From assembly GCF_018069705.1 (NCBI RefSeq), contig NZ_CP072943.1, positions 3,007,945 through 3,071,944 on the forward strand: a stretch of DNA of 64,000 bases, written 5' to 3'. The DNA comes from Aminithiophilus ramosus (lineage in GTDB: Bacteria; Synergistota; Synergistia; Synergistales; Aminithiophilaceae). The notes beneath the pieces were generated by a model. That model searched no databases, was not told the DNA's origin, and was given only the letters and a program-made list of their open reading frames with translations. How positions within the stretch are numbered: the first letter of the stretch is position 1; every line of letters begins with the position of its first letter. The translations under genes and the position numbers were made by a program. This document shows, in pieces, positions 38,031 to 39,448 of the stretch.

Positions 38031-38083
38031 TTCCTGGAATGGATCTCTTCCCCCTCCGGGGGGAGGACCGGAGTTGAGGCGAG

Positions 38084-38140
38084 ATGAGCCCGAAATCCCT
38101 GTCCCTTCAGATGAACCGCTTCTGGTGGTGGCCTCTCTAG
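38084..38140 (+). CDS. trpL: trp operon leader peptide
   Basis: The 18-residue frame MSPKSLSLQMNRFWWWPL ends in TAG, and ttgaggcgag lies just before the ATG. Three consecutive Trp codons near the end are the hallmark of a tryptophan attenuator leader: when charged tRNA-Trp is scarce, the ribosome stalls there. An internal ATG at 38111 (MNRFWWWPL) would give a shorter version. The alternative RNA stems and trpB lie directly downstream, so the role is well supported by context. Confidence 0.85.
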   Translation: MSPKSLSLQMNRFWWWPL

Positions 38141-38208
38141 GCCACCGCAGCCGTCGTGCGTCCGGGGCTGCGGGGGAATTCTTCCCTCACAGCCCCTTTT
38201 CCTTTTTC
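38127..38208 (+). promoter_or_regulatory. Tryptophan transcription attenuator upstream of trpB
   Basis: Four RNA segments can pair in the classical scheme. 1:2 is ggtggcc (38127-38133) with ggccacc (38140-38146). 2:3 (antiterminator) is ccgcagcc (38145-38152) with ggctgcgg (38166-38173). 3:4 (terminator) is ggggctg (38164-38170) with cagcccc (38190-38196), plus inner gggaa with ttccc, followed by ttttcctttttc. Segment 1 overlaps the Trp codons, so ribosome stalling would free segment 2. Confidence 0.85.
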
Positions 38209-38232
38209 GGAGGGGCCTGACGAGGCCCCTCC
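38209..38232 (+). terminator. Second hairpin between the attenuator and trpB
   Basis: ggaggggcc pairs with ggcccctcc around TGACGA, directly after the attenuator T-run and before the trpB ribosome site. It may be a back-up terminator or a stem that protects the mRNA end. Confidence 0.45.
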
Positions 38233-38263
38233 TTCGTCGTTTCATGAGGAGGTTTTTCTGAAG

Positions 38264-39448
38264 ATGAGTCGAGATGAGATGAGACGAGGCTTTTTCGGGG
38301 AATATGGCGGCGCCTTCGTGCCCGAGGCCCTTCTGCCCCGCCTGGAGGAGCTCGATCGGGCCTTCGTCGAGGCCACGGCCGACGGCGAGTTCGAAAGGGA
38401 GTATGTGCGCCTCCTCAAGGAGTACGTGGGGCGCCCCTCGGCGCTGACGGAGTGCGCCAACGTGAGCCGTCACTGCGGCGGCGGCCGCCTCTTCCTCAAG
38501 AGAGAGGATCTGAACCACACGGGGGCCCACAAGATCAACAACGCCCTCGGCCAGGCCCTGCTGGCCCGACGGATGGGGAAGAAGGAGCTCATCGCCGAGA
38601 CGGGGGCGGGGATGCACGGGACGGCGACGGCGACGGTGGCGGCCCTCTTCGGGATGAAATGCACCGTCTACATGGGCGCCGTCGACGTGAAGCGTCAGGC
38701 TCCCAACGTGGCCCGCATGAAGGCCCTCGGCGCCGAGGTCGTCGAGGTCCACGACGGGCTGGCGACGCTGAAGGAGGCCGTCGACGCGGCCCTGACGGCC
38801 TACGTGGAACAGCCCGAGACCTTCTATCTCCTGGGCTCGGCCGTGGGACCCCATCCTTTCCCGACGATGGTGCGCCGCTTCCAGAGCGTCATCGGCCGCG
38901 AGGCCCGGGAGCAGTTCCTGGCCCGCGAGGGACGCCTTCCCGACTACGCCCTGGCCTGTGTCGGCGGCGGCAGCAACGCCATCGGCCTCTTCTCGGCCTT
39001 CGTCGACGACGCCTCGGTGAAACTCGTCGGCGTCGAGCCCGCCGGACGGGGCCTTCATACGGGCGACCACGCGGCGACTCTCGTGGCGGGCAGGCCTAGC
39101 CTGATCCACGGCTTCCGCAGCTACGTCCTGGCCGACGGGGCCGGCGAGCCTCTGCCCGTCTATTCCATCTCGGCCGGCCTGGACTATCCCGGCGTCGGCC
39201 CCGAACACGCCTTCCTCAAGGACTCGGGAAGGGCCTCCTATGTGGCCGTCACCGACGACGAGGCCGTCGAGGCCTTCAGGACCCTCTGCCGCCTCGAGGG
39301 GATCATCCCCGCCCTGGAGAGCGCCCACGCTCTGGCCCAGGCCCTGAAGATGCTCCCCGGCCTGAGAGAGGACGAGACGCTCCTCGTCAATCTTTCGGGA
39401 CGGGGCGACAAGGACCTCGATCAGGTCCTCCCCCTCCTGGGCCTCTGA
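38264..39448 (+). CDS. trpB: Tryptophan synthase beta chain
   Basis: 394 residues, the usual TrpB1 length, from the ATG behind gaggagg. It condenses indole and serine to tryptophan with PLP. Lys90 in HTGAHKINNAL is the PLP lysine, Glu112 in AETGAG the catalytic acid, and GGGSNAIGLF binds the PLP phosphate. The substrate loop reads GAGMHG where most enzymes have GAGQHG. No trpA or other trp gene is adjacent: the next gene is on the opposite strand. The upstream attenuator shows that it responds to tryptophan. Confidence 0.94.
   Translation: MSRDEMRRGFFGEYGGAFVPEALLPRLEELDRAFVEATADGEFEREYVRLLKEYVGRPSALTECANVSRHCGGGRLFLKREDLNHTGAHKINNALGQALLARRMGKKELIAETGAGMHGTATATVAALFGMKCTVYMGAVDVKRQAPNVARMKALGAEVVEVHDGLATLKEAVDAALTAYVEQPETFYLLGSAVGPHPFPTMVRRFQSVIGREAREQFLAREGRLPDYALACVGGGSNAIGLFSAFVDDASVKLVGVEPAGRGLHTGDHAATLVAGRPSLIHGFRSYVLADGAGEPLPVYSISAGLDYPGVGPEHAFLKDSGRASYVAVTDDEAVEAFRTLCRLEGIIPALESAHALAQALKMLPGLREDETLLVNLSGRGDKDLDQVLPLLGL

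Follow-up and report, generated by a model that had tools for sequence, protein, structure and literature searches.

A Trp-codon attenuator with a putative second, linked terminator before the solitary trpB of Aminithiophilus ramosus and other Synergistota

Attenuators that read Trp codons are known in Proteobacteria and Actinobacteria (PMC1262725). The leader of the E. coli trpEDCBA operon, trpL, carries its tandem Trp codons within segment 1, can form 1:2, 2:3 and 3:4 stems as alternatives, and has a U-run after 3:4 (PMC1183508), and the operon is additionally controlled by a repressor. Candidate attenuators have been described for trpB1EDGC and trpB2A of Corynebacterium diphtheriae and for trp/trpS of Streptomyces (PMC1262725). 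The his leader of Salmonella and E. coli forms a longer chain of exclusive pairings among six segments (AB, CD and EF versus BC and DE), with uridines after EF only (PMC10989985, PMC1183508).

The 64,000-nucleotide stretch of Aminithiophilus ramosus DNA analysed here (the window) belongs to a genome of 3.1 Mb, assembled as a single contig, from the order Synergistales. It contains a trpB that stands outside any trp operon behind a short leader ORF, which the initial annotation had described as a complete tryptophan attenuator ending at 38208. The features of the locus are as follows:

38070..38079, + strand: ribosome-binding region of the leader ORF, with GGAG at 38070-38073 and GAGG at 38076-38079 (sequence)
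38084..38140, + strand: leader peptide ORF MSPKSLSLQMNRFWWWPL, with stop codon TAG at 38138-38140 (sequence, orthologue comparison)
38123..38131, + strand: three regulatory Trp codons, TGG TGG TGG, at the same place in orthologues
38125..38134, + strand: segment 1, which pairs with segment 2 (folding)
38139..38156, + strand: segment 2, of which 38139-38148 pairs with segment 1 and 38142-38156 with segment 3
38164..38178, + strand: segment 3, the 5' arm of T1, which alternatively pairs with segment 2 (folding)
38182..38207, + strand: segment 4, the 3' arm of T1 and its U-run, of which 38192-38199 has segment 5 as an alternative partner
38164..38207, + strand: T1, a predicted intrinsic terminator (3:4 hairpin, -25.5 kcal/mol, U-run; sequence, energy)
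38209..38218, + strand: segment 5, the 5' arm of T2, of which 38209-38216 can pair with segment 4 (folding)
38223..38242, + strand: segment 6, the 3' arm of T2 and the tail TTCGTCGTTT (sequence)
38209..38242, + strand: T2, a second terminator-like hairpin (5:6; hairpin 38209-38232; -22.4 kcal/mol; folding, comparison)
38246..38252, + strand: trpB Shine-Dalgarno sequence GAGGAGG, also kept in the congener G002 (sequence)
38264..39448, + strand: the lone trpB, encoding a tryptophan synthase beta chain of 394 aa (TIGR00263, clade, intact catalytic residues)

The product of the lone trpB passes the TrpB1 profile TIGR00263 with 572 bits against a cut-off of 392. The gene is monocistronic, with a convergent neighbour that begins 1 base past its end, which agrees with the earlier proposal that the leader governs a solitary trpB outside a trp operon. 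The leader ORF likewise lies exactly where it had been placed, with its WWW codons and with GAGG and GGAG just upstream. A scan for sigma-70 consensus promoters upstream of this leader found none. When the window is compared with G002, the ribosome site GGAGYTGAGRCGAGATGAG, the FWWWP codons and the hairpins are all kept; the N-terminal leader residues diverge, and upstream of the ribosome site the DNA is unrelated. No other WWW leader-like ORF occurs on either strand of the 64 kb, where a Markov-1 model predicts ~0.1. Genome-wide, the pattern TGGTGGTGG-N3-9-TAG returns the lone-trpB leader, the trpE leader and one site antisense to a tRNA gene. This last site (L170) is a coincidence, and a match to the WWW pattern in G008 (L228) stands before an unrelated gene.

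The 1:2, 2:3 and 3:4 stems of the original proposal, the last followed by a T-run, were re-measured and are present. They are mutually exclusive, and segment 1 overlaps the Trp codons, as judged from sequence and folding. The 2:3 core pairs CCGCAGCC (38145-38152) with GGCTGCGG (38166-38173), and the 3:4 stem occupies 38164-38196 and runs into TTTTCCTTTTT at 38197-38207. By sequence and energy, 3:4 has the form of an intrinsic terminator: a GC-rich hairpin with a U-run, placed before a gene. The free RNA from 38118 to 38244 folds into exactly three hairpins. Besides 1:2 and 3:4 there is one at 38209-38232, so the element extends beyond the previously assigned end at 38208. Its fold has an energy of -71.4 kcal/mol, compared with -47.6 +- 3.5 kcal/mol for 200 dinucleotide shuffles (z = -6.8; 0/200 as stable). 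Rfam scans, trp leaders included, returned no relevant match for this leader or for the genome's own trpE leader. Computation confirms the predicted element as a real ribosome-mediated attenuator, at which we infer ribosome stalling and termination at T1 and at T2.

From a sample of 188 Synergistota genomes, 48 stand-alone-type trpB loci were fetched: 47 of a stand-alone TrpB clade, and one from G060. All 48 carry a leader with 2-4 Trp codons just before the stop of the short ORF, in variants that include WWWW, WWRWP, GWWRGF and WWCV. Such a leader is absent from all 12 of the operon-internal trpB upstream regions looked at. The 1:2 and 2:3 stems (the latter of at least 6 bp) are each present in 47/48 stand-alone leaders and 3:4 in 48/48; the corresponding figures for operon (trpE) leaders are 18/19, 19/19 and 19/19. 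The leaders are related, and these counts are therefore not independent events. The initial annotation had named loss of the Trp codons or stems in orthologues as evidence that would count against it; the codons are lost in none of the 48, and the stems are kept in nearly all, so the proposal withstood this check.

The host genome has one trpA, which lies inside a complete trpE-G-D-C-F-B-A operon ~740 kb from the lone trpB; the idea of a host without the remaining trp pathway was dropped, as the full trpEGDCFBA set is present. This operon has a WWW attenuator of its own with the layout of the lone-trpB element: leader MSAACTTRNWWWRT, an obvious promoter, TTGACA-18-TATCAT, which the lone-trpB leader lacks, and its own terminator hairpins. 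Because the operon is separately attenuated, two units in this organism are under Trp attenuation, and the TrpB encoded by the lone gene is a second and distinct one that shares 62% identity with the operon copy. The first reading of the locus was in this respect incomplete: those of its inferences that sequence can test held, but it had missed both the attenuated operon and the linked second terminator. The same genome was searched for a His counterpart of these leaders, and no short ORF rich in His and accompanied by terminators turned up. Elsewhere in the phylum, a second trpE-like gene, apart from the operon, has its own WWW leader with a T1/T2 pair (L229 in G066, L230 in G009). Two tandem trpB copies with trpA between are found in the trp operons L148 and L149 (G049, G048), and three operon-type trpB frames (G137:C11, G138:C2 and G079:C92) have one in-frame stop codon each.

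The third hairpin, T2, is present in 43/48 stand-alone and 19/19 trpE leaders, with a median T1-to-T2 spacing of 15.5 nt and a mean energy of -23.6 kcal/mol, and the T1/T2 layout extends to the trpE leader of G042, from another order of Synergistota. Five related genomes (G152, G143, G176, G142 and G140) have T1 only. The T2 tail in the window is a weak U-run, and that of G002 reads CTTTTTTT. Across leaders, at least 5 T occur in the next 9 bases after T2 in 59/62 and after T1 in 53/62, against a background T frequency of 0.24. If T2 terminated constitutively, induction would fail, and we therefore sought something that could open it. Segment 4, together with its U-run, could provide this: in the window, GCCCCUUU (38192-38199) is able to pair with GGAGGGGC (38209-38216), and very different yet matching 4:5 pairs are found in G148 (CUCUUUUGU/AACGAAAGAG), in G020 (AGCCCCUUAA/UUAAGGGGCU) and in the host's own trpE leader (GGCCUCUCCC/GGGAGGGGCC). 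When 2:3 was locked to mimic a stall, 4:5 pairing of at least 6 bp appeared in the minimum-energy fold of 61/62 leaders, L131 being the one in which it was not seen. A second exclusive stem set, 4:5 versus 5:6, is present downstream of 3:4, as in a six-segment leader of the his type.

Some 4:5 pairing is expected from terminators in general, since their 3' arms are rich in C and lead into U, and their 5' arms are rich in A and G. For this reason we swapped segment 5 partners among 40 mutually dissimilar leaders, chosen to lessen the effect of relatedness. The 4:5 duplex has an energy of -16.6 kcal/mol with its own partner and -13.9 +- 0.4 kcal/mol with swapped partners, and 0/20,000 permutations were as good (stand-alone subset, 0/20,000; trpE subset, 15/20,000). 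With segment 5 reversed, the energy is -13.7 kcal/mol. This permutation took the place of a count of 4:5 base pairs on MAFFT alignments, which was set aside because T2 is misregistered in them.

The stand-alone TrpBs (46 rows) group together in a single clade, with an SH-aLRT of 97, and are separate from the operon TrpBs of this phylum; their closest relative outside Synergistota in the tree sample is from Desulfovibrionaceae. The lone trpB occurs without trpA and trpC in at least 16 genomes that are 90% or more complete, and three of these carriers (G015, G053 and G055) are single-contig genomes. Catalytic residues, His86, Lys87, Glu109 and Ser377 among them, are intact in the stand-alone TrpBs. 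Arg175, present in 31/33 operon copies, is no longer conserved; Asn171 is replaced by Asp in 44/46, and Lys167 is retained. We take Asn171 and Arg175 to be TrpA contacts of the COMM domain, and Lys167 to lie at a TrpA contact as well. The lone TrpB does not carry Res6, the published set of six residues that marks stand-alone activity (E36, E42, T53, S187, A279, M280): the window copy has E, V, S, S, F and R at these positions, and position 279 is Phe in 46/46 stand-alone copies. Because that signature is absent, TrpA-free activity can only be inferred. The lone TrpB would most probably make Trp from free indole and serine and be turned on by Trp shortage.

Several loci bear on the same subject. 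A protein of the tryptophanase family (NF009709) is encoded in the host genome at G000:C1:2585385-2586746 (L203) and is a possible internal source of indole; another is found in G015. At G142:C12:137119-137386, two short adjoining trpA fragments appear to be remnants of a lost trpA. G060, which lacks trpA and trpC, has at L145 a solitary trpB of the operon clade preceded by a WWW leader of the operon type; here an attenuated lone trpB arose independently. L227 (G017, contig C7) is a TrpB2-like gene, ~34% identical, with leader MLKRFSNKNWWWQTQKVCP and one terminator, in a genome without trpA.

These elements suggest a working model: the attenuator probably uses charged tRNA-Trp as its signal, and the stand-alone TrpB under its control most likely makes tryptophan from indole and serine. 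With ample Trp, the ribosome would reach the stop codon and cover part of segment 2, so that 3:4 would make T1, and any polymerase that reads through would then meet T2 (5:6). When Trp is scarce, the ribosome would stall on the WWW codons, preventing 1:2 and letting 2:3 be made. The 2:3 stem would free segment 4; this segment is synthesised ahead of segment 5, and 4:5 pairing could then keep T2 from forming; with neither terminator formed, trpB would be transcribed. As 5:6 (-22.4 kcal/mol) is stronger than 4:5 (about -14 kcal/mol), such a relay must rest on the order of synthesis, which is invoked over stability for 2:3 versus 3:4 in the same way. We consider it somewhat probable that 4:5 blocks T2 on stalling in this manner. 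To a similar degree we favour the wider proposal of a "relay attenuator", in which one stalling sensor would drive two serial intrinsic terminators through six exclusive segments (1:2, 3:4 and 5:6 versus 2:3 and 4:5), throughout Synergistota, on both the trp operon and the TrpA-free indole-salvage trpB. If the relay is true, it would give a tighter shut-off from a single signal.

The element might instead be a classical single attenuator followed by an unregulated backup terminator, with 4:5 pairing a by-product of terminator composition. Swapped partners do still pair at a mean of -13.9 kcal/mol, five genomes manage without T2, and the extra hairpin of the his leader has been proposed to lower basal read-through (PMC1183508). 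Yet if T2 formed constitutively and had a good U-run, the gene would be silent even in starvation, and the excess of own-partner pairing among the 40 dissimilar leaders recurs separately in the stand-alone and operon subsets, so we regard this reading as possible but doubtful. It is distinctly less probable that T2 is no terminator and that, close to the start of trpB, it has a stabilising role or controls translation. Several genomes do have T2 a short way before the Shine-Dalgarno sequence, the window copy has a poor U-run, and the CCUCC of segment 6 might base-pair with GAGGAGG; but stabilisation calls for no U-run, and one of at least 5 T within 9 bases follows all but three of 62 T2 hairpins. 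The leader is also predicted to yield a terminated RNA and a small peptide, and rnTrpL and peTrpL act in trans in Sinorhizobium (PMC7298713), so the products could act in trans, besides or instead of in cis. As leader N-termini diverge even within the genus and only the Trp codons and stems are kept, this is very improbable.

The attenuator could also be real while the lone TrpB is an ordinary TrpA-partnered duplicate or an enzyme for another substrate, and no indole-salvage enzyme. About half of the lone-trpB genomes also have trpA and trpC, Lys167 is kept at its presumed TrpA contact, and the stand-alone Res6 signature is absent. Against this stand the near-complete genomes, at least 16, that lack both trpA and trpC, with only trpA fragments in G142, and the drift of positions 171 and 175 around an intact active site; control through Trp codons, moreover, implies that the product belongs to the Trp pathway. 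We think this reading unlikely. That the hairpins and WWW codons are chance or relic features of no function is scarcely credible: it has nothing in its favour beyond the general frequency of GC-rich hairpins, and it is opposed by the 48/48 conservation, the z of -6.8, and a phylogenetic footprint that contrasts with the unrelated region upstream.

We looked for the lone type beyond the phylum. About 90 of 199 sampled genomes of a Desulfovibrionaceae-type family have a TrpB that is closer to the lone type. The loci fetched from the Desulfovibrionaceae family of G188 (L173-L202) hold a second, lone-type trpB, at 60-77% to that of Mailhella (L004), and 23/30 have a WWW leader followed by a single terminator, AACCGCGG..CCGCGGTT, and no T2. 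As this unit has one terminator, the gain of a second one is open to comparative study. In the open-access full texts searched, a collection with few subscription journals, neither trp attenuation in Synergistota nor a single sensor driving two intrinsic terminators turned up, which is weak evidence of absence. With an unusually full comparative record of ~67 leaders, ribosome-mediated trp attenuation is extended here to Synergistota.

The Synergistota element shares with E. coli trpL its tandem Trp codons in segment 1, its three alternative stems and the U-run after 3:4; it differs in governing a lone trpB and in adding a U-run hairpin that segment 4 could open. The six-segment chain of exclusive pairings is like that of the his leader, whereas the codons are Trp in place of His and U-runs follow both 3:4 and 5:6. 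As in A. ramosus, C. diphtheriae has two Trp-codon-attenuated trp units per genome, one led by an additional trpB; there, each trpB sits in an operon with other trp genes, and no second linked terminator has been described. Serial attenuation steps are likewise found in Salmonella mgtCBR (PMC3641672) and in the tandem THI elements of Desulfovibrio thiSGHFE (PMC545781). These have one sensor per step (Pro and ATP in mgtCBR, two riboswitches in tandem THI), and the stem-loops of mgtCBR are unlike intrinsic terminators, whereas in Synergistota one sensor would drive two terminators. On the enzyme side, plTrpB of Pelodictyon luteolum and the ancestral LBCA TrpB (PMC11917138, PMC8576815) are likewise TrpB1-type proteins outside a trp operon, and LBCA TrpB (5ey5) is by sequence the closest solved structure to the lone TrpB; the LBCA-type stand-alone enzyme carries Res6, which the Synergistota protein does not. 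As the lone trpB is the only tryptophan-synthase gene in many species, indole salvage would there follow tRNA-Trp charging, and, if the linked second terminator works as read, it would offer a simple route to low leak from one sensor.
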